Part shown: positions 31,246-50,584 of the stretch, piece by piece
How the letters are laid out: every line of letters starts with the position of its first letter
Position numbering within the stretch: the first letter of the stretch is position 1
Origin: Gammaproteobacteria bacterium
GTDB taxonomy: Bacteria; Pseudomonadota; Gammaproteobacteria; Pseudomonadales; Cellvibrionaceae
Assembly: GCA_004172865.1 (NCBI GenBank)
Contig: SEBV01000001.1
Span: forward strand, 186,001-250,000
DNA length: 64,000 bases
Reading direction: 5' to 3'
Position numbers and translations under genes: made by a program
The notes under the pieces: model-generated
What the model was told of the DNA's origin: nothing
The model's database searches: none
Seen by the model: the letters and a program-made list of their open reading frames with translations, nothing else

Positions 31246-32790
31246 TTAAGGTGTAACGAGCTTTTTAATTTTGGTTGCAGTTATTTCTGCACCAGACGTT
31301 TTGTAATTGTGATCGTAGAGGGCAGTTTCCCATGACCCGTAAATTGGGTTGGGAATTAAAAACCACTTAGTCCCCCAATAATCAGTAAAGCCATCCGCTA
31401 TTTTTACTCGCTCTTCCGGCGTTGTATAAGCTCCTGCTACAAAATCACCAAAGTCATCGCCTATCAATGCAAGAATTCTAAATTTTTCTGCAATAAATAA
31501 GCGTCGTGAACTTTTGTCCGATGTGTTCCAACCATTTTCATTTTTAGTTAATACGGTATCAATAGTGTTTGATAACGGCATTCCAAGCTTTTCGAGATTT
31601 GCGCGTGTATCAGTTTCTTGCGTTGCATCGCGATTGGTTACATAAAAAATGGTGATACCTTTGTTCGCCACATATTTTAAAAATTCGCTTGCTCCCGGCA
31701 CAGCTTTTGAGGCTTGCGATTTAGTCCATAGCGCCCAAGACGTGGGATCGTATTCGCTACGAGTTTTAATAAGTTGGGCTTGATAGGGAATATTATCTAA
31801 AACAGTTTCATCTATGTCCAGAATAATTGCGGGTGGAAGCGTGGTGTAATTACCTTTTTGTTCTGTAGCTGCCGTCCAGTTTTTTTGTCGAAATGCAATA
31901 TCAATGGCGTTATGAGCTTGTTGATAAGCGCTTGCTGCGAGCACGCGATATTCTGCAGAGGTTTGCATCCACACAACTGAGTTGAGCCGTTCATTGCTTT
32001 CATTTTGTGTTTTGACTTCGCTTTTCGCTTTTTCAACTTTTTGTGGACAATCAATAGGCTCGAATTTTTTGTTGTAACACACATACATTTCTATCCCGTA
32101 AAAACCGAGTTTTTTGTGCGCGAGCTTGGGGTTGTGTATGTCCATCCAGCGCGCAAGCTCGGCTTGATCAAGCTTCTCCGTCGGTGTTTTTAACGCGGAA
32201 AATAATACATGGGCTTTTTTAAAATATTTTACCGGTGAGGAAAAATCGCAGGCGCCATGTTTTTCCCATTCGCCTTGTAAAAGTTCGGCGCTGGGTGTCA
32301 TGCATAAAAAAGGTTTGATTTCCTTATAAGGTAATTGTGCAAGATCGCCTTTGCAAAAACGCGGATGCTTTTTAATGTCTGTGAGATCTTTGCATTCAGC
32401 TAGGGATATCCCATCGCAAGATGATGCCCAAAGCCCATGCACAACCCATTTAAATTGGTTGTTGCTAAAGCATTGCAACTTATTATGTTGCTCAAGTTGT
32501 TTTGCCTCAGCAGATTTTCCGTCGCTGTTTAACTTGGCGATATCATTCTGAATTTTTTGGCAATAATCTGGTGACCAGCTAAGCGCTAATTTGAAGTAAT
32601 CGTTATTGCCGGTTTTATTAATACCAAAAGGATCTTTGGTAACATCAAAATCATAATTGGTATCTGGCTCGGTGAGTATTTGACACGATTGCGCCAGAGA
32701 TAAATTACTTACTAACATCACTGCAAAAAATACGCACAATTTTTTGTAAATAATTTTTCGATTTTCAAAGCCCAAATGTGCAATTTTCAA
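31246..32790 (-). CDS. Secreted RNase T2 - e(P4)-type acid phosphatase fusion
   Basis: One uninterrupted chain of 514 residues with two enzymes. After a signal peptide (about 1-35) comes an RNase T2 domain: FKLALSWSPDYC, active-site segment I VVHGLW (118-121 for HGLW) and segment II EWEKHGAC (174-181), with many Cys for disulfides. From about residue 270 a class B/e(P4) HAD phosphatase follows, with the catalytic DIDET at 325-329, then VTNRD and a GDDFGDF motif. RNase T2 leaves 3'-phosphates, which the second domain could remove, giving free nucleosides. TTG at 32790 with AAAAGG upstream gives the signal peptide; the longer frame would run into puuE. Lies 55 bp after puuE, same strand. Confidence 0.88.
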   Translation of the reverse strand: MKIAHLGFENRKIIYKKLCVFFAVMLVSNLSLAQSCQILTEPDTNYDFDVTKDPFGINKTGNNDYFKLALSWSPDYCQKIQNDIAKLNSDGKSAEAKQLEQHNKLQCFSNNQFKWVVHGLWASSCDGISLAECKDLTDIKKHPRFCKGDLAQLPYKEIKPFLCMTPSAELLQGEWEKHGACDFSSPVKYFKKAHVLFSALKTPTEKLDQAELARWMDIHNPKLAHKKLGFYGIEMYVCYNKKFEPIDCPQKVEKAKSEVKTQNESNERLNSVVWMQTSAEYRVLAASAYQQAHNAIDIAFRQKNWTAATEQKGNYTTLPPAIILDIDETVLDNIPYQAQLIKTRSEYDPTSWALWTKSQASKAVPGASEFLKYVANKGITIFYVTNRDATQETDTRANLEKLGMPLSNTIDTVLTKNENGWNTSDKSSRRLFIAEKFRILALIGDDFGDFVAGAYTTPEERVKIADGFTDYWGTKWFLIPNPIYGSWETALYDHNYKTSGAEITATKIKKLVTP

Positions 32791-32845
32791 TTGCTTATAC
32801 CTTTTGTTAACTGTTAAACGAAGTGATTTTGTAGAGGGAATGCAA

Positions 32846-33769
32846 TTAATTTTTTGGGTAATGTTCTTTATGCCAATGCTGCGCAATTGCGTCGCGTCGG
32901 CATATCCACACATCCTGATGGCTCAAAATATATTGCATAAAACGTTCGAGAGATTGAATGCGTCCTGGTCTGCCGATAATGCGGCAATGCAATCCAATAT
33001 TCATCATCTTGGGTGCAGTTTCACCTTCGGCATAAAGTGCATCGAAACAATCTTTTAAATAGGTATAAAACTGGTCGCCGCTGTTAAAACCTTGCGGCGC
33101 AGCAAAACGCATATCGTTGCTGTCGAGCGTGTAGGGAATAATCAGGTGCGGCTTGCCGTAGTCGTGCGTCCAGTAGGGCAAATCGTCGGCGTAAGAATCT
33201 GAATCATAAAGAAAGCCGCCTTGTTCGATGACCAGTGCTCGAGTGTTAGGGCTATCGCGCCCCGTGTACCAACCTAATGGTCGCGAACCCGTTACGCGTT
33301 TGTGAATTTCTATGGCTTTGCGGATTTGCTCGCGCTCAACTGCGGGCGCCATAAATTGATGATCAATCCAGCGGTATCCGTGGCTCGCAATTTCCCAGTC
33401 CGCTTGCAACATCGCAGCAACCACTTCCGGGTTGCGCTCCAGCGCCATAGCCACGCCATAAACAGTTGCCGGTAATTGATACTTTTGGAATAGGCGATGC
33501 AACCGCCAAAAACCAGCGCGGCTGCCATATTCATAAAGCGATTCCATACTCATATGGCGCGCTTCAAATGCGCGTGCGCCGATGATTTCTGAAAGAAAGG
33601 TTTCGGATGCAGCATCGCCATGCAGCACACAGTTCTCGGCACCTTCTTCATAGTTAATGACAAATTGCACCGCAATCCGTGCGCCGCCAGGCCAATTAGC
33701 ATGGGGAGGGTTTGCGCCGTAACCAATCATGTCACGTGGGTAGGTGGAAGGTACTTTTGCATCGCTCAT
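32846..33769 (-). CDS. puuE: Allantoinase (polysaccharide deacetylase-like, PuuE type)
   Basis: 307 residues. Cofactor-light allantoinase related to polysaccharide deacetylases, distinct from the amidohydrolase AllB. It opens (S)-allantoin to allantoate. Signature segments: YPRDMIGYGANPPHANWPGGARIAVQFVINYEEGAE at the N-terminus, RAGFWRLHRLF, and ASHGYRWIDHQ. No signal peptide, so cytoplasmic. Fits with PuuD, UraH and UraD at the right end and with allantoate amidohydrolase at 46.5 kb. Confidence 0.92.
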   Translation of the reverse strand: MSDAKVPSTYPRDMIGYGANPPHANWPGGARIAVQFVINYEEGAENCVLHGDAASETFLSEIIGARAFEARHMSMESLYEYGSRAGFWRLHRLFQKYQLPATVYGVAMALERNPEVVAAMLQADWEIASHGYRWIDHQFMAPAVEREQIRKAIEIHKRVTGSRPLGWYTGRDSPNTRALVIEQGGFLYDSDSYADDLPYWTHDYGKPHLIIPYTLDSNDMRFAAPQGFNSGDQFYTYLKDCFDALYAEGETAPKMMNIGLHCRIIGRPGRIQSLERFMQYILSHQDVWICRRDAIAQHWHKEHYPKN

Positions 33770-34097
33770 AAAAATTATTGCCCGATCTTTGAAATCTTAA
33801 GGTTATGTGATGAACACAAGAGTAGTAAGAATAGTTGTCATTGCAGTTTCAATACTTTCATAAATGTTACAAATTCTGTGCCACCGCCCAAGGTTGTGTG
33901 CGACGGTAAATTTGCTGTAAATCCGCAATATTACTGGGCAAAAATAGGTTGGCTGCACCATCAATAAACAAATCTCGACCATTTGGACAAGTTATTGGCC
34001 GGTAGTTAAAGGTCTAGCGGCTGGTATCACTATTGCATTGGGTTCATGGTCACTATCCCTCTTCCTTATTAATACTTCTTTACAGTGTGGGCTTCCT
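33770..34097. other. Divergent intergenic region puuE / ADA-like gene
   Basis: 328 bp holding the promoters of two divergent purine genes. I see no convincing -10/-35 pair, palindrome or riboswitch. Confidence 0.4.
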
Positions 34098-35555
34098 ATG
34101 TCTTTTTTTTCGTCTTTAAGAGTACGTTTTGCATTGCCATGGTTAATAAGCCTGTGCATTTTTGGTACCGCGATAAATGCATCTGCAGTTACCAATAATG
34201 ATTGGTTTGAAAAATTTAAAGCCACTGCGACCAATGACGAACTTTACAAATTTTTATATGCCATGCCCAAAGGTGGCGATTTACATAATCATATTAGCGG
34301 CGCAGTTTTATCGGGCTGGTGGTATGACCTTGCGTTGGGCCAAGCAAAATACGGTTACCGTTTTTACACCAAAGTAAAAATTAATAATTGCAAACCTTAC
34401 GGTGTTAATGAGTTTGGTCGTCGCCCTTATTATCTTTTATTTAATACGATCCTCGAATCCAATTTTAACAAATTACCTGAGTGTGAAAAATCGGAATACA
34501 AATCATTAAATTTATTAACGGCAGAAGAAAAAACCGCATGGCTTGAAAGTTTACGATTGGACAAGCCCTATGAAGGGCGCGATGAATTTTTCCAAACTCA
34601 TTGGCAACGTATGGATCAATTAACCGACAGCCCTTACATGATGGCTGAAATGCTCTACCAAAACATGAAAGCCTTTGGCGATGAAGGATTGATTTATTTA
34701 GAAACGATGATGGACGGTAGCGGCTATTCTGATCCCGAAGGAAACCCTATTCCAAACGATACCGCCATTGAAATATTTCGTAAGCGACTTGCCCAACCAG
34801 ATGCAAAAGCCACTGGCGTTACCGTGCGTATGCAGGAATCTATACTGCGTTTCCTGCCCAATGCTGAGCAGCAACTCATCGATGCTTACGAGCTTGTTTC
34901 CAAGCATCGCGACCTTTATGTGGCAGTCAATATGGTAGGTCGTGAAGACAACGACAAAGGCCATCCATTACGTTTTGTAAAAACACTGCGCGAGTTGCGC
35001 CACAAATACAATAACGTGCGTTTATCTATTCACGCTGGCGAGGTAGATGAACCAAGCACACATATTCGCAATACTTTAATGATGGGTGCAGATCGTATCG
35101 GTCATGGCGTAGATTTAATTACCGATGAAGATTTAATGCGTCAATTGCGTCACGGCCCTTACATGATTGAAATAAATTTAATTTCTAATTTAATGCTCGA
35201 ATATGTAAGCGATTATTCCAAGCATCCATTTCCAGAATATTTACGCATTGGTGTTCCGGTTGCGCTCTCGACCGATGATCGTGGTATGTGGGATTCGAAT
35301 CTTACCGACGAGTTTTTTGTCGCCGTAAAAGAATTTAATTTGTCGTGGGATGAAATACTTTTGCTCAGCAGAAATTCGCTGCAATATGGATTTATGGAAG
35401 ATGATGTGAAAGCGCAATTGTTAAAAACCTACAATGCTCGCATCAATAAATTTGAGCAAGGTTTTGCGAGCAGTGGTGCAAACAGTTTTAAAAATTCAAA
35501 ACCAGTTTCTTACAGTTTTACGTGCAAGCATTATTCAATGTGTTCGTATAACTAA
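34098..35555 (+). CDS. Exported adenosine deaminase-like protein (ADGF/CECR1-like)
   Basis: 485 residues from ATG at 34098, with a signal peptide (LPWLISLCIFGTAINASA). Metal and catalytic motifs of the ADA family: GDLHNHISGAVL (HxH), SIHAGE, RIGHGVDL and STDD. The protein is much longer than cytosolic ADA (about 340 residues), with extra N-terminal sequence, like secreted growth-factor-type deaminases. It would convert adenosine to inosine in the periplasm or outside, just after the RNase/phosphatase releases nucleosides. Substrate is inferred. Confidence 0.82.
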   Translation: MSFFSSLRVRFALPWLISLCIFGTAINASAVTNNDWFEKFKATATNDELYKFLYAMPKGGDLHNHISGAVLSGWWYDLALGQAKYGYRFYTKVKINNCKPYGVNEFGRRPYYLLFNTILESNFNKLPECEKSEYKSLNLLTAEEKTAWLESLRLDKPYEGRDEFFQTHWQRMDQLTDSPYMMAEMLYQNMKAFGDEGLIYLETMMDGSGYSDPEGNPIPNDTAIEIFRKRLAQPDAKATGVTVRMQESILRFLPNAEQQLIDAYELVSKHRDLYVAVNMVGREDNDKGHPLRFVKTLRELRHKYNNVRLSIHAGEVDEPSTHIRNTLMMGADRIGHGVDLITDEDLMRQLRHGPYMIEINLISNLMLEYVSDYSKHPFPEYLRIGVPVALSTDDRGMWDSNLTDEFFVAVKEFNLSWDEILLLSRNSLQYGFMEDDVKAQLLKTYNARINKFEQGFASSGANSFKNSKPVSYSFTCKHYSMCSYN

Positions 35556-35570
35556 CTCTTAAACGGAAAT

Positions 35571-35620
35571 TGCGCCATGCGACATATTGGTTCAACTCGT
35601 GGTGCATGGCGCATTATTTT
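35571..35620 (+). terminator. Terminator after the exported ADA-like gene
   Basis: TGCGCCATGC pairs with GCATGGCGCA (35571-35580 with 35604-35613), then TTATTTT. The remaining gap to the receptor gene (to 35851) holds a further imperfect hairpin (CCTTATCCAGC/GCTGGATGGATAAGG, about 35652-35692) and presumably the receptor promoter. Confidence 0.65.
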
Positions 35621-35851
35621 GCATCGATAATTCAGATTTTATAACCTTATCCAGCTCACCTAAAAATGCTTTTTGGCTGGATGGATAAGGGTTTTAACCC
35701 CGCTTCATACCTCCTAACTTGATGATAAATAACATAATTTAATTTGCCTTCGTAAAAACGTAACCATTTAGACAGGAAATGGCATACCGCTTGCAAACTC
35801 CAGCTCAGTTGTTAGGCACTTATTATTAGACACACTCGGAGTTCACAGGCT

Positions 35852-38248
35852 ATGACCATACATGATTGTTTTACACGTAAGAAACTTGCCCTGGCAATTA
35901 GCCTTGGTTGTGCGATGGCCGCGTCAAGTGCCTTCGCCGAAGATGCAGCTGCGATAGATGAAGTGGTTGTTACTGCAGACAAAATGGGTTTGATGAATGA
36001 GAAAGCGAAATCAGTTTTCGGTTTTGATAAATCCATTCTCGAAACACCACGCAGCGTAACTACTGTTAGTTCGAAAATGATGGAAAGTTACAACATTACT
36101 GACATCGACGATTTGGTGTTGGTGTCTCCTGGTGCGTTTACCCAATCCTTCTTTGGTGTTGCAGGTTCGTTGGATGTGCGCGGTACCCCCGGTGAAGTTT
36201 ACTTCCGTGGTATGCGTCGTGTGAACAACCCTGGTAACTACCCAACGCCAATCGGTGCTTCCGACAGTATCGATATTGTGCGTGGCCCGGCGTCACCAAT
36301 TTACGGCCCTTCTAAAATCGGTGGTTACCTCAACTTCGAACCCAAGTCTGCACGTGTAGAAGAATCAGGTAAATTTTTGAATGCACCTGAAGGTCAGATT
36401 ACTTTCACACGTGGTAGCTGGGATAAGAATGTATTGACTGCTGAAGTTGGCGGCCCAGGAAAAATTGGCGATAAAGATTTAGGTTATTACATTTACGCTG
36501 AGACAGAAAATTCTGGTAGTTACTACGACAATTCCGGTACCGACCAAAATATTTTGCAAGCGTCCTTTGATCTCGATATTTCTGATTCAACCAAAATTGA
36601 ATTCGGTGGAATGTATCAAGAATTCGACGGCAACCAGGTTGCAGGTTGGAACCGTCTCACACAGGATTTAATTGATAACGGTACTTATATTACGGGATCA
36701 CCAACATCAGTAGACACCAGCGGTGATGGTTACAACTCCATAGCAGAATACAGTGCATGGAAAGATACTTTTACAAAAAGTAATTTCTTTGTACCTATGT
36801 CAACTGCAACCAATGGCAGTTTAGATCCAGCTTGGGCGTTGCAAAATCCTGGCACCGCGAAATTAAAAGGCAATCAAACATTAGTTGCCGAAGAAGATCA
36901 GTTGAAAACTAAAGTCACTACTTTATATTTCGATGTGAAGCATGAGTTCAACGAAGACTTTTCTGTTACCAACAAAGCTTTTTATGAAAAGTTAAAAAAC
37001 ATTAATGAAAACGCTTACGGTTTCTCACAGTTTGTAGATACCTACGCGTTTGAAGACCAAGTGGTATTTGCACTTAAAGCTGACCATGCCGATTGGTTGA
37101 AAGCGAATTACCAATTTTCGCCAAGCTATCGCTACACCGACTTTCAACAAGGTGATGATTTCAATTACGAATATTTTGACCGTCGCGATTTAACCAAGCC
37201 ATCATCTGCAATTGACCGCAAATTATTGGCGACTGTTACCGATTCTGATTATTCAAATTACTTAGTGGGTAATTTCACAGACTACGGTTTGGCATTTTTG
37301 GCAGACTATACCATCGCTGAAAAAATTGGTTTGTTGTTAGGCGCTCGTTATGACTACCTGGATATGGAAAGCCATTCTGTTGCTGCGAAGTTGGAAGATC
37401 CAACATCAGCTTCAGCCGCGAGTGATGACGACCACGGTGTGTCATGGACTGCAAGTTTGTCCTACACCACACCATTCGGTTTAATTCCCTATGTAACCAG
37501 ATCTAAACAAGCAACCATCGTAATGGGCCAAGGTTCAGAAATTGCTCCTTCTTTAATTGCCAGTGGCGATGCGATTGCTGATTCAACCTTGAAAGAAATT
37601 GGTGTGAAAGGCAGCTACTTTAAAGAGCGTTTATTCTTCACTGCAGATTACTTTGATCAAACTCGTACCAACTATTCTGCGCAAGACCAAGTGAGTAACA
37701 ACACCACTGAAAGTAAAGGTTATGAGTTGGAAGGTCGTTTCTTGTTGAGTGAAAACTTCACTGTTACTACTGCATTTACTCACTTAGAAATTCTTAACTT
37801 AACGGCAAGAAAAAGCGGAACGCAATTTGGTTTTGCGGGTGCCGGTGACTTGACTGGTGTAACTGATCCTTCATTGTTCTACGGTTATGTAATGCAAGGT
37901 TTGACCTTGGTTGGTGATGATAGCGCTTCAGAAAAATCCGGTATTCCAAAAAATATGGTTAGCCTTACAGGTGCTTACAATTTTGGAAATGGTTTTAGTG
38001 TAACGGCAAGTAGTGTTCATGCTGAATCCACTTACTCAGGTTTCTCTAAAGCAATTAAATTGCCAGCTTACACACTCTTCAACGCCGGTATTACTTACGC
38101 TACCGATACCTGGAGTTTGAGTTTGCAAGGTAAAAACTTAACAGACGAACGTTACTTCCGTTCTAACTTCCCGGATCTTTTTGGTAGCACCATCGTATTG
38201 CCAGAATTACCACGCAGTTTCGTGGCGAAGTTAGGAATGAAGTTCTAA
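35852..38248 (+). CDS. TonB-dependent outer-membrane receptor
   Basis: 798 residues with signal peptide ending ASSAFA. A plug domain begins with the TonB-box-like DEVVVTA, then TPRSVTTVS and SIDIVRGPASPIYG. A beta-barrel follows, with NLTDERYFR and a terminal LGMKF. Barrel-type receptors import large or scarce substrates using proton-motive force. Its place between the exported deaminase and a NUP-type lipoprotein suggests uptake of nucleosides, nucleotides or purine bases, but ligand specificity cannot be read directly. Confidence 0.9.
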   Translation: MTIHDCFTRKKLALAISLGCAMAASSAFAEDAAAIDEVVVTADKMGLMNEKAKSVFGFDKSILETPRSVTTVSSKMMESYNITDIDDLVLVSPGAFTQSFFGVAGSLDVRGTPGEVYFRGMRRVNNPGNYPTPIGASDSIDIVRGPASPIYGPSKIGGYLNFEPKSARVEESGKFLNAPEGQITFTRGSWDKNVLTAEVGGPGKIGDKDLGYYIYAETENSGSYYDNSGTDQNILQASFDLDISDSTKIEFGGMYQEFDGNQVAGWNRLTQDLIDNGTYITGSPTSVDTSGDGYNSIAEYSAWKDTFTKSNFFVPMSTATNGSLDPAWALQNPGTAKLKGNQTLVAEEDQLKTKVTTLYFDVKHEFNEDFSVTNKAFYEKLKNINENAYGFSQFVDTYAFEDQVVFALKADHADWLKANYQFSPSYRYTDFQQGDDFNYEYFDRRDLTKPSSAIDRKLLATVTDSDYSNYLVGNFTDYGLAFLADYTIAEKIGLLLGARYDYLDMESHSVAAKLEDPTSASAASDDDHGVSWTASLSYTTPFGLIPYVTRSKQATIVMGQGSEIAPSLIASGDAIADSTLKEIGVKGSYFKERLFFTADYFDQTRTNYSAQDQVSNNTTESKGYELEGRFLLSENFTVTTAFTHLEILNLTARKSGTQFGFAGAGDLTGVTDPSLFYGYVMQGLTLVGDDSASEKSGIPKNMVSLTGAYNFGNGFSVTASSVHAESTYSGFSKAIKLPAYTLFNAGITYATDTWSLSLQGKNLTDERYFRSNFPDLFGSTIVLPELPRSFVAKLGMKF

Positions 38249-38479
38249 TTGCTTTGATGTAAATGTTTGTTGTTTGATGAAGATTGTATAGGGGTTCCGC
38301 GATGTGGTGCCCCTGTACAACACCCTAATCCTTCATGATCCATATCTTTGCACATGAAGTTGATAATGAATTTTTATTAATGGCTACAGCGGTCTAACTA
38401 AGAATGTAGTGGTTAATGTTTTTATGTTGTAAATGTTTTTGTTGTGCTTGCTTTACCGTTCGTCTTCTCGTCCTCCTTT

Positions 38480-38545
38480 GCCGCCAGCACTGCAATTCTT
38501 GCTGAACACTTAATAGCCTGAATCGCAGTGCTTGGTGGCTTTTTT
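38480..38545 (+). terminator. Strong terminator or attenuator upstream of the NUP gene
   Basis: GCCGCCAGCACTGCAATTC (38480-38498) pairs imperfectly with GAATCGCAGTGCTTGGTGGC (38520-38539), and a run of T follows. It is 230 bp after the receptor stop but only about 75 bp before the NUP start codon, so attenuation of the NUP gene is as plausible as termination of the receptor transcript. Confidence 0.65.
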
Positions 38546-38562
38546 AAAGCGCGCTTTAAAAA
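38541..38562. promoter_or_regulatory. 22 bp perfect palindrome upstream of the NUP gene
   Basis: TTTTTAAAGC then GCGCTTTAAAAA forms an exact palindrome centred on GCGC, about 57 bp before the NUP start. It overlaps the T run of the preceding terminator. Could be an operator; no similar site was noticed at other purine genes. Confidence 0.4.
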
Positions 38563-38618
38563 CAACAGATAAATTGAGTTGTAATTTTTATAAATTTTTT
38601 TGATAAACGGGATCTCTG

Positions 38619-39695
38619 ATGTCCAATTCCAGATTAGTAAAATTCCTCATAATTTCTTTTAGTGCAATCTGGTTGAGTGCATGCAAACCTGAAACCGAAA
38701 AGAAAGCAGCGCCTATTCCTGTAAAATTTGTTGTCATCACCATGTTCGAAATTGGTAAAGACGAAGGCGACAAAGCCGGCGAATTTCAATTGTGGAAAGA
38801 GCGTCAACATTTGGATACGCGTTTTCCGTTTCCAAATTCGTTCCACGATATTTATATGAATGAAAAAACTGGTGTGATGGGAATCGTTACCGGTATTGGT
38901 ACAGCACATTCAACTGCCGCGTTGATGGCGCTAGGAATGGACCCGCGTTTTGATTTTAGTAAAACCTATTGGTTGGTTGCTGGTATTGCAGGTATAGATC
39001 CCGAAGATGCTTCAATCGGTTCTGCAGCATGGGCAGATTATTTAGTGGATGGCGATTTAGCTCACGAAATTGATGCACGCGAAAAACCAGCTGATTGGGA
39101 AACCGGATATTTTGCGCGTTACACCAAAAAACCTTACGACCCAAACAAACCAGCTCCCACCGGCGAAATGTATGAAGTGAACCACGAATTAACCGAGTGG
39201 GCATTTCAATTAACGAAAGATATTCAATTACCCGATATCGAAAGTTTGGAAGCAACGCGTTCGCGTTATGTAAATCACCCTAATGCGCAACGTAAACCTT
39301 TTGTGTTGAAAGGCGATCAACTAGCGGCCATGACCTTTTGGCACGGCGCCATCTTGAATGACTGGGCCAACAAATGGACCAAATATTGGACCGATGGCAA
39401 AGGCGAATTTGTCACCTCGGCGATGGAAGAGACTGGCACATTTTTATCGCTAAGTTATTTATCGAATATCGGCAAGGTCGATAAAAATCGCGTCATGGTT
39501 TTGCGCACCGGCAGTAATTACACCATGCCACCACCGGGCGTTACGGCAGCAGAAAATTTGCTTGCAGAAAATGAAGGTTACGCCGGGTTGGATGCCGCAC
39601 TTGAATCTGCGTACATAGTAGGGTCAACTGTGATGAATGAAATTCTTGGCCATTGGGATAAGTACAAAGATACAATTCCAGCAGCGGGGAAATAA
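38619..39695 (+). CDS. NUP-family purine nucleoside lipoprotein (copy 1)
   Basis: 358 residues. Signal peptide with lipobox LSAC. The rest matches the NUP family (purine nucleoside permease, named after Candida NUP): VKFVVITMFEIGKDEGDKAGEFQLW, GIGTAHSTAALMALG, and GSNYTMPPPG near the end. The family name says permease, but the chain is soluble with no transmembrane helices, and its fold resembles nucleoside phosphorylases; binding or cleavage of nucleosides is more likely. A paralogue lies at 54081. Confidence 0.82.
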   Translation: MSNSRLVKFLIISFSAIWLSACKPETEKKAAPIPVKFVVITMFEIGKDEGDKAGEFQLWKERQHLDTRFPFPNSFHDIYMNEKTGVMGIVTGIGTAHSTAALMALGMDPRFDFSKTYWLVAGIAGIDPEDASIGSAAWADYLVDGDLAHEIDAREKPADWETGYFARYTKKPYDPNKPAPTGEMYEVNHELTEWAFQLTKDIQLPDIESLEATRSRYVNHPNAQRKPFVLKGDQLAAMTFWHGAILNDWANKWTKYWTDGKGEFVTSAMEETGTFLSLSYLSNIGKVDKNRVMVLRTGSNYTMPPPGVTAAENLLAENEGYAGLDAALESAYIVGSTVMNEILGHWDKYKDTIPAAGK

Positions 39696-39811
39696 TCGAG
39701 GTGGTAGTAAAAGCTTTGTAAGAATATTGCCCGTTTTTACACTTATCGAATTTATTTGGGAATCGTTATCCCTTAGGGATCTAGCGTCTTTGACTTAGAT
39801 TTTTTAATGCC

Positions 39812-39840
39812 ACTGGATCCTTAAGGGATGACGACTCCCT
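39812..39840 (+). repeat. Second copy of the GGATGACGACTCCCT intergenic repeat
   Basis: Shares 15 identical bases (39826-39840) with 22987-23001, preceded in both by CTGGAT-CC. The gap also contains a small ATCCCTTAGGGAT palindrome (about 39768-39780). Confidence 0.55.
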
Positions 39841-39919
39841 TCTGAAAAAAACGATTAAGTGAGTACATTTAAGTTTATTTCGTTTTTTTAAAATTCCACC
39901 CAGAAAAAGATGAGTCCAA

Positions 39920-41143
39920 ATGCAGCTCGACCAACGCGTCTTCGCATGGCGCGGTAGCTATAAAGCGCCACAAAATTCCACAGGCAGCCTCGTCGGATTG
40001 CGGCTGGGAGTAAAAGATTTATTTCATATCGCCGGCCTTCCAACCGGGGCTGGCAATCCTGATTGGTTAGCAAGTCATAGCGTTCCCGAACAGTCATCGC
40101 CCGTTGTGGCGGAGTTGCTAAGCGCTGGAGCAAACCTTATCGGTAAAACGCAAACCGACGAACTCGCTTACAGCCTCAATGGTTTAAATATTCACTACGG
40201 CGCGCCGGTAAATCCCAAAACACCTGAGCGTTTGCCCGGCGGTTCAAGTAGCGGTTCGGCGGCGGCGGTTGCTGCTGGTGAAATTGATATCGGCTTGGGA
40301 ACTGACACCGGCGGCTCCATTCGTGTGCCTGCCAGTTACAACGGGTTATTTGGCATTCGCACGACCCACGGATTAATTAGCTGCGAACATATGGTTCCGC
40401 TTGCGCCGCTGTTCGATACAGTAGGCTGGCTTACGCAATCGGCGGATTTGCTGCTGAAAGTTGGTGAAGTTTTATTACCTAAAACGACTTCAGTTTGGGC
40501 CCAAACCAAATGCTTAAAAATTGGTGTGCTCGCGCCCGAGGTCAACCAAACTTATTTATGGGATGAAGGTTGCGACGCGTGGTTAACGCAGCAAAATTTT
40601 TTGCAGAAAACCAAACGTTTAAGTGTGGATGAAATTTGGTTTGCTCGCGCCAGCCAATGTTTTCGCATCCTGCAAGGCCGAGATATTTGGCGTACTCACG
40701 GCGATTGGATTACCCAACATAAACCCACCTTTGCGCCCGATATTCACGCACGTTTTGAATGGGCCAGCCAATTAACCGCCGAACAACAAAGCGCCGCTGA
40801 AGCCGAGCGACTAAAGTTACAACAAGAGATTGCCTATTGGTTTGAAGGAGTCGATTTATTGCTACTGCCAACAACCCCGGGGCCAGCACCATTGTTAGGT
40901 GCAAGTGCTGAGTGGATGGATGATTATCGCAGCCAATTGATGGGCTTAACGGCCGCTGCGGGCTTGGCAGGTTTGCCGCAAATTCATTTGCCGGTATTAC
41001 AGGAAAATGATGCGCCCTTCGGAATTTCGCTGCTCGGGCCCAAAGGTTTTGATCTCGATTTATTACATATCGCCGCACGTTTGAATTACGCCGCAAGTTT
41101 GAATTACATCGAAAGCGCTGAAACTGCGGCGGTAAAACTATGA
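39920..41143 (+). CDS. Amidase-signature hydrolase, candidate oxalurate amidase (HpxY/AtzE-like)
   Basis: 407 residues, amidase signature family. The Ser-cisSer-Lys triad is visible: Lys in GVKDLFHI, Ser in PGGSSSGSAAA, and Ser in GTDTGGSIRVPASY. No signal peptide. It overlaps the next gene by 4 bp (ATGA) and heads a unit of GGT-like hydrolase, TSUP exporter, ureidoglycine aminotransferase and adenine deaminase. In Klebsiella an AtzE-like amidase (HpxY) and a GGT-like protein (HpxW) occur together in the uric acid hpx cluster, so hydrolysis of oxalurate to oxamate is the best guess. The substrate is inferred only. Confidence 0.8.
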   Translation: MQLDQRVFAWRGSYKAPQNSTGSLVGLRLGVKDLFHIAGLPTGAGNPDWLASHSVPEQSSPVVAELLSAGANLIGKTQTDELAYSLNGLNIHYGAPVNPKTPERLPGGSSSGSAAAVAAGEIDIGLGTDTGGSIRVPASYNGLFGIRTTHGLISCEHMVPLAPLFDTVGWLTQSADLLLKVGEVLLPKTTSVWAQTKCLKIGVLAPEVNQTYLWDEGCDAWLTQQNFLQKTKRLSVDEIWFARASQCFRILQGRDIWRTHGDWITQHKPTFAPDIHARFEWASQLTAEQQSAAEAERLKLQQEIAYWFEGVDLLLLPTTPGPAPLLGASAEWMDDYRSQLMGLTAAAGLAGLPQIHLPVLQENDAPFGISLLGPKGFDLDLLHIAARLNYAASLNYIESAETAAVKL

Positions 41144-42753
41144 GTCACGCTAGCAAAATTGCCTTTACCGCGCCTCATTACCAAGCCGGCGAAATCGGTT
41201 TGAAAGTGTTGGAACAGGGCGGTTGCGCAGTTGATGCAATGATCGCCGCCGCCGCTGCGATTACGGTTTTATATCCCCATATGAATAGCCTCGCTGGCGA
41301 CGGTTTTTGGATTATCCACAAACCCGGCGAAGCCCCGCGCGCTATAGATGCCTGCGGTAATGCAGCGCAACTCGCCAGTATTGATTGGTACACGCAGCAA
41401 GATTTTAAGCAGATACCAAGTCGTGGTGCTTTGGCCGCTGTTACCCTCGGCGGCACTTTGAGTGGTTGGCAAAAAGCTCGCGAAATTGCGGCGGAATCCC
41501 AAGAGCTTTTGCCGCTTGCTGAATTGCTTGCGCCTTCCGTAGATTTGGCAAAAACAGGCATCACCGTAACAGAAAGCCTGGCCGCCGCGAGTCGCAAAGT
41601 TGAGCCTGAGTTTGCTGGGTTTACCGAATACCAACGCGTATTTATGCCCAAGGGTCGCCCCTTAATTGCGGGCGAAAACTTTACCAATCCTGACCTGGCC
41701 ACCTTTATGGAAGGCTTGGCTTCAGATGGTTTACAAGGCGCATTTCGCGGGCGTTTAGCGGCGCAAATCGCCGTCGCGCTAGCTGAATCTGGCAGCCCCA
41801 TTCGTTTGGCGGATTTGCAATCTTACGCGGCACAGGAAGTAAAACCGCTTTCAATCAATACGCGCTTTGGCGCTTTTTATAATTTGCCCGCGCCCACGCA
41901 AGGCATAGCGTCGCTACTGATTCTCGCTATTTACGACCGCATTATGCAGCCTGAGTGGGATCAGGCAGAACGCATTCATGCTTTGATCGAAGCGACTAAA
42001 CAAGCGTTTATCGTGCGCGACCGCGAAGTCAGCGATCCACGCCGCTTAAGCGCGAACTGGTCGGATTTATTAAGTGATGCACACATCGACAAACTCGCCG
42101 CACAAGTTCGCGAAGAGGCGTTGCCTTGGCCGCATGTTGCTGAAGTTGGCGATACTGTGTGGATGGGCTGCGTGGATAAAGACGGCACCATGGTCAGTTT
42201 TATCCAAAGTCTTTATTGGGAATTCGGTTCGGGCGTGGTCATCCCAGGCCTGGGTTTAGTGTGGAATAATCGCGGCGTAAGTTTCAGTCTCGATCCTGCA
42301 AGCCGCAACGTTTTAACACCGGGCTTCAAACCTTTTCACACCCTTAATCCCGCGTTCGCCGTGTTGAACGATGGTCGACGCATCAGCTACGGCACCATGG
42401 GTGGCGAAGGCCAGCCACAAACTCAGGCTGCGTTGCTAACCCGTTATTTGTATGATGGCTTGCCTATCGACGAAGCCATCAGCCGTGGCCGGTGGCTGCT
42501 GGGTCGCACGTGGGGCGATAACAATCACGACTTGAAAATGGAGCAAGATTTGTTAGAGCAAGCGAGTCCCGCGGGCCTGACCATAGGTGCTGAGTTGCGC
42601 GCACGTTGGCATTCACTTAAATCCGTTCCCGCACGCAGCGAGCTTATGGGGCATGCGGGCGCTATCGTCAGCTTTGCGGATGGCAATGCGGTGGCTGCAA
42701 GTGATCCACGCAGCGACGGAGCAGGTTTAGTGGGCGAGGTCGGCGATCTATGA
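41140..42753 (+). CDS. hpxW: GGT-like Ntn hydrolase, probable oxamate amidohydrolase (HpxW-like)
   Basis: 537 residues of the gamma-glutamyltransferase superfamily. These proteins self-cleave before a Thr that becomes the N-terminal nucleophile; here the likely residue is Thr339 in EVGDTVWMGCVDKDG, followed by the GGT-like NNRG and a small-subunit region. No signal peptide, unlike periplasmic GGT, so glutathione metabolism is less likely. Klebsiella HpxW is known to hydrolyse oxamate to oxalate and ammonia in urate degradation. The cluster context (ATGA overlaps on both sides) supports that reaction. The symbol is by analogy. Confidence 0.78.
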   Translation: MSHASKIAFTAPHYQAGEIGLKVLEQGGCAVDAMIAAAAAITVLYPHMNSLAGDGFWIIHKPGEAPRAIDACGNAAQLASIDWYTQQDFKQIPSRGALAAVTLGGTLSGWQKAREIAAESQELLPLAELLAPSVDLAKTGITVTESLAAASRKVEPEFAGFTEYQRVFMPKGRPLIAGENFTNPDLATFMEGLASDGLQGAFRGRLAAQIAVALAESGSPIRLADLQSYAAQEVKPLSINTRFGAFYNLPAPTQGIASLLILAIYDRIMQPEWDQAERIHALIEATKQAFIVRDREVSDPRRLSANWSDLLSDAHIDKLAAQVREEALPWPHVAEVGDTVWMGCVDKDGTMVSFIQSLYWEFGSGVVIPGLGLVWNNRGVSFSLDPASRNVLTPGFKPFHTLNPAFAVLNDGRRISYGTMGGEGQPQTQAALLTRYLYDGLPIDEAISRGRWLLGRTWGDNNHDLKMEQDLLEQASPAGLTIGAELRARWHSLKSVPARSELMGHAGAIVSFADGNAVAASDPRSDGAGLVGEVGDL

Positions 42754-43574
42754 ACGAATTCTGGAGCCAATGGCTGCCAACCATTATCGCCATGATTATC
42801 ACCGGTGCCTTTGCCGGAATTCTCGCGGGTTTACTTGGTGTTGGCGGCGGCATCGTCATAGTGCCAGTGTTGTATTTTGTATTGCAGGCCGCAGGCGTTA
42901 GCCCCGCGACCGCCATGTTAGTGGCGACGGCAACTTCACTATTAACGATTGTGCCGACCAGTATTTCGTCCATCCGCGCGCATCACAAACGCGGTAATGT
43001 GGATTGGCTGTTGGTGAAACGTTGGTGGCCTTTTATGTTAATCGGCGTTGTACTGGGCAGCACTTTTGCACTACACGCGAAGGGTACTGCCGCGAGTATG
43101 ATCTTCGGTGTGGTTGCGGTGTTAGTCGCCATCAATATGTTATTTCGCGCAAAAGCAGCGCCCATCGCCCAGCAACTGCCGAGCATGAAAGGTCAGGGCC
43201 TAATGGCCGGTTTTATCGGATTTTTCTCGGTGATTATGGGCGTCGGCGGCGGTACAGTCGGCGTTCCCTTGCTCACCGCGTGCAACTATTCGCCCCATCG
43301 CGCCGTGGGCACAGCGTCGGTATTTGGAATGCTCATCGCCTTGCCAGGGTCAGCCGCCATGTTGTTAGCACACACACCGGCAGATGCACCCCAAGGTATG
43401 ATCGGCATGGTCAACTGGCCTGGTTTTCTCTGCATAGTGCCGCTCACCGTTTTGCTAGCGCCCACAGGTGCGTGGATCGGTTCGCGGCTGGATTCGGTTA
43501 TGCTGAAGCGAGTATTCGCTGTTTTTCTTTTTATCAGCGGCGGTCGCATGCTAATGCAAGCCTTAGGGTTTTAA
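42750..43574 (+). CDS. TSUP-family (TauE/SafE) membrane transporter
   Basis: 274 residues with about eight transmembrane helices and the two family repeats: GAFAGILAGLLGVGGGIVIVPVL and, in the second half, GFIGFFSVIMGVGGGTVGVPLLTA. TSUP proteins move small organic or sulfur anions. Coupled to the GGT-like gene by a 4 bp overlap, so it may export oxalate or oxamate made by the pathway, or import an anionic intermediate. Direction and substrate are inference. Confidence 0.83.
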   Translation: MNEFWSQWLPTIIAMIITGAFAGILAGLLGVGGGIVIVPVLYFVLQAAGVSPATAMLVATATSLLTIVPTSISSIRAHHKRGNVDWLLVKRWWPFMLIGVVLGSTFALHAKGTAASMIFGVVAVLVAINMLFRAKAAPIAQQLPSMKGQGLMAGFIGFFSVIMGVGGGTVGVPLLTACNYSPHRAVGTASVFGMLIALPGSAAMLLAHTPADAPQGMIGMVNWPGFLCIVPLTVLLAPTGAWIGSRLDSVMLKRVFAVFLFISGGRMLMQALGF

Positions 43575-43618
43575 AAAAAGTATTTTAAAAGAGTATTTTG
43601 AAAAAGAGTGACACCAAT

Positions 43619-44887
43619 ATGAGTGAGTTTAAGTCTGACGATTACGCCGTAAATCCCGCACTCCTGCGTCCCTTTTCGCCGCCGACTCGTTTGTTAATGG
43701 GCCCGGGGCCGATCACGGTTGACCCGCGAGTATTGCGCGCAATGTCGGCGCAATTGGTTGGCCAGTACGACCCCGCCATGACGCAATGTATGAACGACAC
43801 TATGGCGCTCTATCGCGGTGTATTCAAAACCAAGAACCAATGGACTTTTCTAGTTGATGGAACATCGCGCGCGGGAATTGAAGCCGTTTTAATTTCATTG
43901 CTCGAACCGGGCGATAAAGTTCTGGTTCCAATTTTTGGTCGCTTCGGACATTTGCTGTGCGAAATTGCTGAGCGCTGCGGAGCCGATGTCCACAAAATCG
44001 AAAAAGCCTGGGGCGACGTTTTTACGCCGGAAGAAATTGAAGCCGCCATTAAAAATGTGCAACCAAAAGTTCTCGCCATAGTGCAGGGCGATACCTCAAC
44101 CACCATGCTACAACCGCTCGAAGATCTCGGCGAAATTTGCGAACGTCACGGCGTATTATTTTATTCAGATGCAACTGCATCCATTGGTGGAAATCCTTTT
44201 CTAACCGACGACTGGAAATTGGATGCCGTCTCCGTTGGTTTGCAAAAATGTTTAGGCGGCCCATCGGGAAGCGCGCCATTAAGCTTGAGCGATAAAGCAG
44301 TGACGGCTATTCGTAAACGTCGCCACATTGAAGCGGGAATTCGCAACGCAAGTCATGTTGATGGCAGCGGTCGTCGCATTGCATCTAATTATTTTGACCT
44401 CGGCATGATTATGGATTACTGGGGCGAAGAGCGACTCAATCATCACACCGAAGCCACGACCATGTTGTATGGTGCGCGTGAATGCGCGCGAATTTTATTG
44501 GAAGAAGGCGTTGAAAATTCTATCGAACGCCATCGAATTCATGGCCGCGCCATGACAGAAAGTTTAGCGGCGATGAATTTAAAGCTCTTTGGCGACTTAA
44601 GCCATAAAATGCACAATGTTGTTGGCGTTTATATTCCCGATGGTGTTGCAGGCGAAGCGGTTCGCAGTTCAATGCTTAATGATTTCGGAATTGAAATCGG
44701 AACCTCTTTCGGGCCACTGCACGGAAAAATTTGGCGCATTGGCACCATGGGTTATAACGCGCGCAAAGCGGCAGTTTTGCAAACCCTCGCCGCACTTGAA
44801 ACGGTTTTACATCGCGCAGGCCACTCGCAAACTGCAAATGCCGGTATAGATTTGGCGATGAAAATTTACAGCGAGGAGGGTCTATGA
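43619..44887 (+). CDS. pucG: (S)-ureidoglycine--glyoxylate aminotransferase
   Basis: Class V PLP aminotransferase (422 residues from ATG at 43619; TTG at 43598 is possible). Related to alanine-glyoxylate aminotransferases: [19 protein letters not shown] at the start and the PLP lysine in [13 protein letters not shown] (about residue 210). In the ureide route it moves the amino group of ureidoglycine to glyoxylate, giving oxalurate and glycine. Allantoate amidohydrolase downstream supplies ureidoglycine, and the amidase/HpxW-like pair upstream could consume oxalurate. The 3' end overlaps the adenine deaminase start (ATGA). Confidence 0.85.
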
Positions 44888-45954
44888 CGTTAGCGCTAAC
44901 TCATCCTGATTTCAGCCAGCTTCCACACGGAGAGAAAATCGCGAGCCGCGATTTTTTAGCGGGCATGCCTAAAGCCGAATTGCATATGCATCTCGACGGC
45001 GCCTTATCGCCCGCCATGATGTTCTCCTTGGGTCAACGCAATCAGATAAATCTGCCTTACAAAAATGTAGAAGAAATTGAAGCGGCCTATAACTTTACCA
45101 ATCTGCAAAGCTTTTTGGATTTGTTATACCAAGGCGCGTCGGTTTTAAAACACGAACAAGATTTTTACGATTTAACACGCGATTATTTTCTAAAGTGCAA
45201 AGCCGATAATATTCGCCACACCGAGTTGTCGTTTGATCCGCAATCGCACACTGACCGCGGAATTTCATTTGATACCGTCATCAGCGGAATTTTGCGCGCA
45301 ATGGCAGATGCAAAAAAAGACTGGGGCATAAACTCAAAATTAGTGATGGATTTTTTACGTCATCTCAGCGCAGAAAGCGCCATGAAAACGCTGGAAGAAT
45401 CTTTGCCGTGGAAAGATAAAATTATCGCTGTAGGTTTGGATAGTTCAGAGCTTGGCCATCCACCGAGTAAATTCACCGCCGTTTTTGATCGCGCTCGCGC
45501 AGAAGGTTATCGCGCAGTCGCTCACGCTGGCGAAGAAGGCCCACCGGAATATATTTGGGAAGCGATTAATTTGCTAAAAGTAGATCGCATAGATCACGGT
45601 GTTCGCTGCGATGAAGATCCAAAACTTGTGGAGTATTTGCGTGAAACGCAAATTCCATTAACCGTGTGCCCGCTTTCAAATGTGCGCCTGTGTGTGTACG
45701 ACAATATGTCGCAGCATAATATTTTTACGTTGTTAGATACAGGCTTGCGAGTAATGGTGAATTCAGATGACCCGACTTATTTTGGTGGTTATTTGAATGA
45801 TAACTTTTTTGCGTTGGCTGATGCGTTTCCTATGACGAGAGCGCAAGCAGTGCATTTGGCGCACAATAGTTTTACGGCGAGTTTTATTAGTGATCAAGAG
45901 AAACAAAGCTTTATTAACGATTTGGAAAGTTACGCAATAAATTTTCAAGATTAA
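44884..45954 (+). CDS. Adenine deaminase (ADA-family, PA0148-like)
   Basis: 356 residues. Cytosolic zinc deaminase. Motifs: [11 protein letters not shown] (HxH ligands), [14 protein letters not shown] (His214 ligand, Glu217 catalytic), [11 protein letters not shown], and [11 protein letters not shown] (Asp ligand). The EEGPPEY form after HAGE and the SNVR pocket resemble bacterial adenine deaminases such as Pseudomonas PA0148, which act on free adenine, not adenosine. It would yield hypoxanthine for xanthine dehydrogenase or for the phosphoribosyltransferase at 47.8 kb. Last gene of the 4 bp-overlapping unit. Confidence 0.87.
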
Positions 45955-45971
45955 TTTTTTTGTGAGATTGT

Positions 45972-46474
45972 TTGCCTGCCGCAGGTGTCACTTTCTTTGC
46001 TTCGCCAAAGAAAGTAACCAAAGAAAGGCGACCCAGCGAATTTCTGATCCTGCGCTTCTCATTCGCTAACGAGCCGTTCTGATAATACATCCCTGTATTA
46101 TCAGAACTAAAATAGGCGTCCTGCCTATTTTGCTCGCGCGCCTTGCGATGCTCGGGAAATTCACATGGGGCCCGTTCGATGCCACATTGAAATTTTATTT
46201 TTCTATTGGTTCCAACTTAAACGTATTATTTAAATTTTTTTGTAAAAGACTTCAGGTGGCACCAAGTTAATCCCATGCGAGTTCGCCGAGCATTGGAGGG
46301 AAATTGCCGGAAAACGCACAGGATGTGCGTTTGAGTGACGATGCGACATGGATGTCGCCCCGGAACGACGGCAATTTACCGAAACGCGCAGGAAACACGA
46401 ACGAGATGGGTCGCCTTTCTTTTGCTTACTTTTCTTTTGGCGAAGCAAAGAAAAGTGAGGCGTGCCGCAGGCAA
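45972..46474. repeat. Fold-back element: two inverted ~215 bp repeat units
   Basis: Left unit 45972-46190 and right unit 46250-46474 are inverted copies around an AT-rich spacer of about 60 bp. Outer ends match closely (GCCTGCCGCAGG, CTTTGCTTCGCCAAAG, AAAGGCGACCCA) and so do inner ends (ATGCTCGG, CATGGG, TGCCAC). In between each unit has two perfect hairpins of unrelated stem sequence: GTTCTGATAATACA-TCCC (46076-46107), AAAATAGGC-GTCCT (46109-46131), AAACGCACA-GGA (46310-46330) and GCGACA-TGGA (46343-46358). Every loop contains TCC read in the orientation of its unit. No transposase is present. It fills the 550 bp gap between adenine deaminase and the allantoate amidohydrolase gene. Confidence 0.75.
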
Positions 46475-46503
46475 ATACTAATTCGTAAAATCAAGAGTCA
46501 GCT

Positions 46504-47748
46504 ATGAAAACCCAACTAGCATCCGACAACGAAACTCTCGCCGCCCAAGTAATGAACTGGTGCGATCAACTCGCTGCTATCAGCACTGAACCTAATAAAA
46601 TCAGCCGATTTTATCTAACCCCGGAACACAAACGCTGCAATGAAGTTGTAGCGGGTTGGATGCAAACCGCAGGCATGAAAACCTGGGTAGATGCCGCAGG
46701 AAATTTATGGGGCCGTTACGAAGCCGCAACTGAAAATGCAAAAACTTTATTGCTCGGCTCGCATTTAGATTCAATTCCAAACGCAGGAGCTTACGATGGA
46801 ATCCTGGGCGTATTAGTCGCCATCGCATCTGTACAACAACTTCACGAACGAAATAGTAAATTGTCTTTTGCCATAGAAATTGTCGGCTTTGCGGATGAAG
46901 AAGGCACACGTTTTGGTAGCACATTATTAGGTAGCCGCGCCGTTGCAGGAACCTGGCAGCAAGAATGGTGGCTATTAAAAGATCGCAATGGCGTTAGCCT
47001 CGCGGATGCATTTCTACAATTCGGTTTACAGCCCGAACTTATCGCCACCGCAACGCGCGCACGTGATGATTTACTTGCTTATCTTGAAGTGCATATCGAA
47101 CAAGGCCCAGTGTTGGAAGATGGCGATTATCCACTCGGAATAGTTACATCAGTTGCTGGCGCGCGCCGTTTTAAAATTGATGTTGAAGGCTACGCCGGTC
47201 ATGCGGGCACAGTGCCCATGCATATGCGTAGAGACGCATTACTCGGTGCAGCCAATGCAGTCATTTTAATTGAAAAAATCGCCATTCAATTAGGCGTAGT
47301 TGCAACGGTCGGCCAAATCGAATGTGGCCCTGGTGCTGTTAACGTAATTCCCGGCCGCGCGCGTTTTTCGCTAGATATTCGCTCCGGTGATGATATTCTT
47401 CGCGATCAAGCGCTCGACAAAATTCAACAAGAATTCGCGTGGTTGTGCGCCGAACGCGAACTCACTGCCCATTGGACTGAGATCCACAACGCATCAGCCG
47501 TCGGTTGCGCACATTGGTTGCAAGACCTGCAATCGCAAGTGCTTGTTGATATGGAATTGGAACCAGTACGTTTAATGAGTGGCGCGGGGCACGATGCGAT
47601 GGCGATTGCAGACATAACTGATGTCGCCATGTATTTTGTGCGCTGCAAAGGCGGCGTGAGTCATCACCCCGATGAATCCGTAATGGTAGAAGACGTTGCT
47701 CTCGCAATCGATGCACTCAGTAGAACACTGCAAAAACTTACACAATAA
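46504..47748 (+). CDS. allC: Allantoate amidohydrolase
   Basis: 414 residues, M20 metallopeptidase fold (AllC/hydantoinase-carbamoylase family). Metal and substrate motifs: LLGSHLDSIPNAGAYDGILGV, DEEGTRFGSTLLGSRAVAG, LEVHIEQGPVLE and SGAGHDAMAIA. It hydrolyses allantoate to ureidoglycine, CO2 and ammonia. A ureidoglycolate amidohydrolase (UAH) is a close alternative, but the PucG gene upstream fits production of ureidoglycine. ATG start follows the fold-back element directly, so it probably depends on read-through or a promoter within the element. Confidence 0.87.
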   Translation: MKTQLASDNETLAAQVMNWCDQLAAISTEPNKISRFYLTPEHKRCNEVVAGWMQTAGMKTWVDAAGNLWGRYEAATENAKTLLLGSHLDSIPNAGAYDGILGVLVAIASVQQLHERNSKLSFAIEIVGFADEEGTRFGSTLLGSRAVAGTWQQEWWLLKDRNGVSLADAFLQFGLQPELIATATRARDDLLAYLEVHIEQGPVLEDGDYPLGIVTSVAGARRFKIDVEGYAGHAGTVPMHMRRDALLGAANAVILIEKIAIQLGVVATVGQIECGPGAVNVIPGRARFSLDIRSGDDILRDQALDKIQQEFAWLCAERELTAHWTEIHNASAVGCAHWLQDLQSQVLVDMELEPVRLMSGAGHDAMAIADITDVAMYFVRCKGGVSHHPDESVMVEDVALAIDALSRTLQKLTQ

Positions 47749-47780
47749 TTCACACAAAAAAAATCGTTTGGGTTTGAAAT

Positions 47781-48365
47781 ATGGATAAACATTTTATTAC
47801 CGCCAATGAACTTTTATTAGATTCATTTAAATTAGGCGAGCAAATTTATCAACGCGGTTTCCGACCACATTTTATCGTCGGCGTATGGCGCGGCGGTTCG
47901 CCGGTGGGAATTGCAGTGCAAGAATATTTAGAATTAGTTGGCGTGCCCACAGATCACATTGCGATTCGCACATCGTCTTATTATGGAATCGATCAGCAAA
48001 GCAAAGATATTCGTGTACACGGCTTGGACTACATCATAAAAAATGTAGACGCTGATCAGGAATTATTAATCGTAGATGATGTGTTCGACTCCGGCCGCTC
48101 TATCAAAGCCATCATCGACGAAATAAAACGAAAATCACGTCGTAATACTCCGAACGTAATTAAAGTTGCCTGCCCCTGGTACAAACCAACCCGCAACGTA
48201 ACGGATTTAAAGCCAGATTTTTATATCCACGCCACTGATCGTTGGCTGGTTTTTCCACACGAATTATGCGGCTTAACACCACAAGAAATTTTGGAAGGCA
48301 AAGGCAGTGAGATTGCAGATACGATTGCAAGAGCAACGAATGTTAGTCAATTTCAGAAAAAATAA
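47781..48365 (+). CDS. Purine (hypoxanthine/xanthine) phosphoribosyltransferase
   Basis: 194 residues. Type I PRTase with the PRPP-binding motif LLIVDDVFDSGRS and the early flexible region GVWRGGSPVGIAVQEYL. It would make IMP, XMP or GMP from free base and PRPP, a salvage branch off the catabolic pathway. 32 bp after allC. Which base it prefers is not readable; the ending LCGLTPQEI is unlike the E. coli Hpt tail. Confidence 0.83.
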   Translation: MDKHFITANELLLDSFKLGEQIYQRGFRPHFIVGVWRGGSPVGIAVQEYLELVGVPTDHIAIRTSSYYGIDQQSKDIRVHGLDYIIKNVDADQELLIVDDVFDSGRSIKAIIDEIKRKSRRNTPNVIKVACPWYKPTRNVTDLKPDFYIHATDRWLVFPHELCGLTPQEILEGKGSEIADTIARATNVSQFQKK

Positions 48366-50230: not shown

Positions 50231-50584
50231 AATATGTCGTCTCTTGTTGGAGTTTGTACGGAGTGATGTCGTTATATTTTTATTTGTGGGTTGAAATCTA
50301 AAGTTCTCCCTGTAAAAGCGGATTTACCCTATCTGTTTTTGTGGGGGAATACAATTGTTGATGACGTATAAATATGTCAGCCACTACAAGAATATTGTGA
50401 ATTTATCACCACATTTATGTGATTAGTACCTCGTGAAGACTTTGCGCGCGAGGTATTAAATAGCTAATTATCTTCTTTAGTTTGCGTAGAAATTATTGTC
50501 GATAATCAATTCCCTCTAAATGGGGGATGGAGAGCATATTTTTTAATTCTTTTATCAATGGTATTAAACAAAAGGAAATTTATC
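50231..50584. promoter_or_regulatory. Divergent region galM / calpain-like gene with palindromes
   Basis: 354 bp shared by two divergent genes. Contains GTGA-ATTTA-TCAC (50397-50409) directly followed by CACATTTATGTG (50410-50421), then TACCTCG...CGAGGTA (about 50427-50456). These could be operators; the first has a 5-base spacer and so does not fit CRP. Confidence 0.4.

Follow-up and report, generated by a model that had tools for sequence, protein, structure and literature searches.

RNase T2 enzymes cleave RNA via 2',3'-cyclic phosphates to 3'-nucleotides, and in bacteria the full conversion of RNA to nucleosides is usually shared out among two or three proteins: an RNase, a cyclic phosphodiesterase and a nucleotidase. 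The E. coli representative of the family, RNase I, yields 2',3'-cyclic nucleotides according to an excerpt of PMC8765455. Class C acid phosphatases, the family of lipoprotein e(P4), are described in an excerpt of PMC8475336 as carrying a four-Asp HAD motif named DDDD; a review table in the same excerpt includes 3'-AMP among the substrates of the class C enzymes CppA and OlpA, and the title of one of its references credits OlpA with preferential activity on 5'-nucleotides. For e(P4)/Hel, the substrates named in an excerpt of PMC10694654 are NADP, NMN and nucleotides, and PDB titles record e(P4) crystallised with 2'-AMP, 5'-AMP and NMN. Here we describe a gene that joins these two known enzyme families in a single frame. 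The fusion is real and rare, its unfused, ancestor-like state is visible in a relative, and its metabolic setting is convincing; as a protein, it combines known parts in a new domain architecture.

The gene lies on the minus strand of the window, by which we mean the whole stretch of 64,000 nt that was analysed (Table 1). From a TTG start at 32790 to a stop codon at 31246-31248 it encodes 514 residues and contains no internal stop, which confirms the observation in the earlier note of one continuous RNase T2-phosphatase frame with correct coordinates. A chance origin of this ORF is ruled out by two domain matches above their cut-offs. Promoter and terminator scans returned sites no more numerous than in shuffles. 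The protein had also been called secreted, and judged by eye its first 33 residues do have the look of an export signal; the claim stands as a reading of that appearance. Between the two domains lies a charged linker of 17 residues that is predicted to be disordered. An AlphaFold2 model built on a 16-row alignment (a first alignment of 57 rows, in which both domains were mixed, was left out of folding) reached a mean pLDDT of 75.3 and a pTM of 0.47, with two folded domains modelled separately, with residues 251-272, 475-498 and 506-514 under pLDDT 50, and with no trustworthy relative placement of the two domains.

Table 1. Features of the fusion gene and its surroundings; positions refer to the window, except for the last row, where they refer to loci of other genomes
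Feature	Position	Strand	Remarks
RNase T2 - class C/e(P4)-type phosphatase fusion gene	31246..32790	(-)	514 aa, TTG start
Class C/e(P4)-type HAD phosphatase domain, residues 267-514	31249..31992	(-)	
HAD motif IV, IGDDFGDF 443-450	31441..31464	(-)	
HAD motif I, DIDET 325-329	31804..31818	(-)	
Linker QKVEKAKSEVKTQNESN, residues 250-266	31993..32043	(-)	pLDDT under 50 in 251-272
RNase T2 domain, residues 36-249	32044..32685	(-)	
RNase T2 motif CAS II, EWEKHGAC 174-181	32248..32271	(-)	
RNase T2 motif CAS I, HGLW 118-121	32428..32439	(-)	
Signal-peptide-like residues 1-33	32692..32790	(-)	putative; cleavage site read by eye; no lipobox match
Ribosome-binding-site-like AAAAGG	32800..32805	(-)	9 nt before TTG; putative, from sequence
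Allantoinase PuuE	32846..33769	(-)	TIGR03212 539.8 bits, cut-off 424.6; 55 nt upstream, same strand
Exported adenosine-deaminase-family protein (ADGF-like), divergent	34038..35555	(+)	A_deaminase 123.8 bits; NCBIfam all below cut-off
TonB-dependent receptor	35852..38248	(+)	
Purine nucleoside permease (NUP) family protein, lipoprotein-like start	38619..39695	(+)	PF06516 394.4 bits
Amidase	39920..41143	(+)	
Gamma-glutamyltranspeptidase-family protein	41140..42753	(+)	NCBIfam below cut-off
TauE/SafE-family transporter	42750..43574	(+)	
Class V aminotransferase	43598..44887	(+)	
Adenosine deaminase	44884..45954	(+)	NF006850 525.7 bits, cut-off 419
Allantoate amidohydrolase	46504..47748	(+)	NF006775 596.9 bits, cut-off 479
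Phosphoribosyltransferase	47781..48365	(+)	
EEP nuclease + e(P4)-like phosphatase frames	L010:1218-3113, L011:355-2082, L163:580-2220		genomes G034, G048, G906

How do the two halves compare with the described enzymes? The N-terminal half matches Pfam Ribonuclease_T2 (PF00445) over residues 64-202 with 37.8 bits (cut-off 26), covering positions 2-124 of the 188 in the profile, and is the sole match to this family in the host genome at E <= 0.001. Both active-site segments lie where the earlier note had placed them, and they hold the His of CAS I (H118) and the Glu, Lys and His of CAS II (E174, K177, H178). Across a local RNase T2 alignment of 69 rows, in which the window protein stands twice (once as query, once from its own genome), H118, E174, K177, H178 and C181 agree with 68, 60, 63, 68 and 69 rows, respectively. 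Residue 173, directly before the CAS II Glu, is Gly in the fusion, whereas 51/69 rows have His and 18/69 another residue. Because the His is missing from E. coli RNase I too, which has Tyr at the equivalent position of a profile alignment, its absence is by itself no argument for inactivity. A profile made from the RNase half and 17 relatives retrieved 21 PDB sequences, one of which is RNase I of E. coli (2ea1, E 4.2e-20). The RNase half thus has both active-site segments and, by profile, the fold in common with RNase I and its family, from which the fusion differs by its C-terminal phosphatase.

The C-terminal half matches Pfam Acid_phosphat_B (PF03767) over residues 254-487 with 145.1 bits (cut-off 27), again as the sole match of the host genome at E <= 0.001. 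Among NCBIfam models it fits TIGR01533 ('5'-nucleotidase, lipoprotein e(P4) family') best, with a score of 209 bits just below the cut-off of 216.05; the unfused phosphatases of two relatives, G016 and G001, score 217.8 and 225.8 bits. The DIDET phosphatase site is at the position given earlier, and the four-Asp HAD motif is present as D325, D327, D445 and D446, with D449 as well. Asp occupies columns 325, 327, 445 and 449 in 67, 68, 67 and 63 of 68 phosphatase rows, and the HAD motif III column at K416 has Lys in 33/68 and Arg in 19/68 rows, in a gappy part of the alignment. Searched as a single sequence against the PDB, the fusion returned acid phosphatases only, the best being the class C enzyme 2i33 (E 5.1e-38), and class C acid phosphatases were likewise the best solved Foldseek matches of its model, with RNase NT at rank 16. 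A class B phosphatase of the AphA type is ruled out, given the far better fit of class C models and structures. Of the earlier assignment to 'class B/e(P4)', the derivation from e(P4) therefore stands, as class C, and class B falls. The lipoprotein anchor of the split relatives has been lost: a lipobox before the phosphatase domain is present in G016 and G001 and absent from the window frame (a crude lipobox pattern matched 22/65 homologues, some of them falsely). In summary, the DxD and GDD motifs and the overall structure match are common to the fusion and the class C/e(P4) family, whereas the missing lipoprotein signal, the position behind an RNase and the score below the TIGR01533 cut-off set the fusion apart.

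Relatives offer a view of how the fusion may have arisen. In G016, a genome of the same genus, puuE is followed by an RNase T2 gene and then by a gene for an e(P4) lipoprotein; the latter two are 22 bp apart and in different frames, and the phosphatase has its own lipobox signal. At the locus after puuE, G001 carries the phosphatase only and G006 the RNase only. Among 21 genomes of the genus, puuE is strong in seven (two more have weak paralogue matches), and three of these seven (G010, G011 and G018) have neither partner. The pair is therefore dispensable. The stretch from a conserved Cys-Pro in the RNase to a conserved Glu-Arg-Leu-Asn in the phosphatase measures 151 nt in G016 and 51 nt in the window, so that 100 nt net have been lost; the longer junction comprises the stop codon, the 22-nt gap, the start and the lipobox signal, all of which are missing from the window, and the loss also brings two different frames into one. 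The RNase half is identical to its G016 counterpart at 116/235 residues (about 49%) and the phosphatase half at 156/282 (about 55%). Quickly built trees (71 and 67 rows, respectively, after removal of duplicate loci) place the RNase half as sister to G006 and G016 (SH-aLRT 96) and the phosphatase half as sister to G001 and G016 (SH-aLRT 94, not starred). Since the outgroups are unfused, fusion rather than fission is the likely direction. The G016 pair thus shares with the fusion its place after puuE and its grouping with both halves, and differs from it in being two genes with a phosphatase lipobox signal rather than one gene without.

A search with the fusion protein found matches in 9 of 96 genomes and in 4 of 21 genomes of the genus, and in either set only its own genome matched over the full length. 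PF00445, searched within the phylum of the window, occurs in 32/369 class, 119/398 phylum, 17/390 order and 6/144 family genomes, these samples overlapping, and PF03767 occurs in 13/144 family genomes, strongly in 7 of the 13. Both enzymes are hence rare in the family, yet they adjoin or fuse in two genomes. Local profiles run over 219 loci gave 98 RNase T2 and 112 phosphatase frames, duplicates included, and the only frames with both domains were four copies of the window's own gene. A contig scan with the fusion, a method that finds close relatives only, gave 57 loci with the phosphatase half only. Eight RNase T2 frames of at least 440 aa besides the window's in the phylum sample (L106, L107, L129, L147-L151) lack a phosphatase; two shorter ones, L108 and L120 (406 and 408 aa), were scanned as well and are no fusions, and frames of 400 and 402 aa in G478 and G720 were left out. 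None of 22 plasmid records covered 80% of the query, and viral contigs held no relative of the fusion. Within the genomes and loci searched, a second RNase T2-phosphatase fusion was accordingly not found. The pairing, undescribed to the earlier reader, is also without description in the literature searched (open-licence papers).

Other arrangements came to light in these searches. Most PF03767 frames of at least 430 aa in the order sample proved to be tandem phosphatases (weak ones in G080 and G918 were left out); two e(P4)-type domains stand in tandem in frames of 553-647 aa at L193, L195, L198-L202, L009, L064, L066 and L067, from genomes of Pseudomonadales family f8 and from Clostridium, with a LysM domain between both in L064. 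An Opitutaceae frame with deaminase-like and e(P4)-type parts (L026, 670-2721) was set aside, its contig containing 14 N and its translation an X between the two parts. In G971, RNase T2 and e(P4)-type genes lie on the same strand about 3.2 kb apart (L219:7775-8605 and 11802-12551); with unrelated genes between them, this is likely chance.

A different nuclease has been joined to the same kind of phosphatase within the family. Three genomes (G034, G048, G906) encode, within a single frame of 547-632 aa, an endonuclease/exonuclease/phosphatase (EEP, PF03372) domain followed by an e(P4)-like phosphatase, and these frames align with each other throughout. Like the fusion, they consist of an N-terminal exported nuclease and a C-terminal e(P4)-like phosphatase. 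They count as a separate fusion, because the nuclease belongs to an unrelated fold and the phosphatase half stands far from that of the window, on a long branch of 2.79 in the phosphatase tree. Of the family's seven strong e(P4)-like genes, four, namely those of the three EEP fusions and the window's own, are thus joined to a nuclease.

As the earlier note had remarked, neighbouring genes consume nucleosides: genes for the breakdown of purine nucleosides and allantoin stand beside the fusion. In six relatives, puuE stays together with the genes for the deaminase-family protein and the TonB receptor. The longer purine cluster was found in G001 (G010, G011 and G018 were outside coverage), and the stretches examined of G016 and G006 showed none of its genes past the TonB receptor. 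The exported deaminase-family protein, TonB receptor and NUP-family protein of the cluster (32846-48365) suggest uptake of purine nucleosides. Further along, at 50558-52063, the window encodes a calpain-family cysteine protease (PF00648), here in a bacterium.

What might the fusion protein do? The reading to which we lean, with somewhat more belief than doubt, is a single exported (periplasmic or extracellular) RNA-scavenging enzyme that would convert RNA to nucleosides and Pi, feed the neighbouring pathway and have arisen by fusion of adjacent genes. We envision that the RNase T2 domain would cut RNA to 2',3'-cyclic ends and on to 3'-nucleotides, that the class C phosphatase domain would remove the phosphate, leaving nucleosides and Pi, and that the products of neighbouring genes would deaminate and take up the nucleosides and degrade them to allantoin-pathway nitrogen. 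In the Cellvibrio lineage, adjacent genes for an RNase T2 and an e(P4)-type lipoprotein would have lost about 100 nt between them, and the phosphatase would have exchanged its lipid anchor for the export signal of the RNase. Export, the two activities, their order and a benefit of fusion are what we infer; the frame, domains, motifs, split relative and neighbourhood are what we see. This reading draws support from the two domains above their cut-offs in one frame, each the sole match of its family in the genome, from the catalytic motif residues kept in both halves, from the split or single relatives after puuE and the trees, from the separately modelled domains and their structural matches, from the purine-catabolic neighbourhood, from 3'-AMP among class C substrates (excerpt of PMC8475336) and the 2'-AMP complex of e(P4), and from the EEP fusions in three genomes of the family. 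If the RNase half stopped at the cyclic product, however, the chain would break, because a phosphomonoesterase would not use 2',3'-cyclic nucleotides. No CpdB scores above cut-off in the host genome, which counts against the sequential enzyme, nothing having been found to open the cycle; one match of 35.5 bits is to an exported 5'-nucleotidase-like protein, so that the phosphatase half is not the sole candidate for its step. Further points against it are the cyclic products of E. coli RNase I (excerpt of PMC8765455), Gly173 (although that enzyme is without the His as well), the 5' preference of OlpA (title in the excerpt of PMC8475336), the dispensability of the pair among relatives and the absence of the longer cluster from the stretches examined of G016 and G006.

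Alternatively, the chain might hold two enzymes that do not act in sequence, the RNase making mainly 2',3'-cyclic nucleotides and the phosphatase serving 5'-nucleotides, NADP and NMN, with the fusion a near-neutral deletion between neighbouring export genes. The product of RNase I (excerpt of PMC8765455), the OlpA reference title (excerpt of PMC8475336) and the substrates of e(P4)/Hel (excerpt of PMC10694654) fit this scheme, as do genes that were neighbours already and are each dispensable in relatives, and a low predicted pTM of 0.47 that gives no sign of a fixed domain arrangement. Against it, two enzymes as rare in the family as these nevertheless adjoin or fuse in two genomes, the surroundings are devoted to nucleoside catabolism, and the same family holds a second nuclease-phosphatase fusion; we regard such uncoupled halves as possible, though rather doubtful. 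The predicted disorder of the charged linker would also suit cleavage of the chain after export into two separate soluble enzymes at work, an outcome with nothing specific against it that we nonetheless hold to be improbable. Even less probable, and quite unlikely in our view, is a phosphatase half that strips 3'-phosphates from RNase-made oligonucleotides so that other exported nucleases can continue: the T4 Pnkp 3'-phosphatase and a Pnkp1 complex do appear as Foldseek matches, but these are weak (E 1.8e-4 to 9.5e-3), far behind those to class C acid phosphatases, and go back to the HAD fold common to all. An artefact of assembly or sequencing, including the junction frameshift that the earlier note had been wary of, is scarcely credible even for a draft genome of 229 contigs with 3.56% estimated contamination, and is rejected on the comparison with G016: the two G016 genes lie in different frames, the halves have only about 50-55% identity to them (no simple loss of reads), the net 100-nt difference explains why stop, start and lipoprotein signal are missing from the window, and synteny is conserved on both sides of puuE.

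Should the halves act one after the other, a single exported protein would cover the tasks of two or three, beside genes that use its products, and bench work would gain an RNA-to-nucleoside enzyme that is ready to use; with the split form in G016, the effect of the fusion can be tested directly. Given the EEP-based fusion in the family, the joining of nuclease and phosphatase seems to have been favoured more than once. A tentative extension, which we put forward as conceivable rather than likely, is that the protein is a bifunctional exported enzyme of a new kind, and that at least two independent tetherings of a nuclease to an e(P4)-type phosphatase in this family may mark a recurring route to feeding on nucleic acids.
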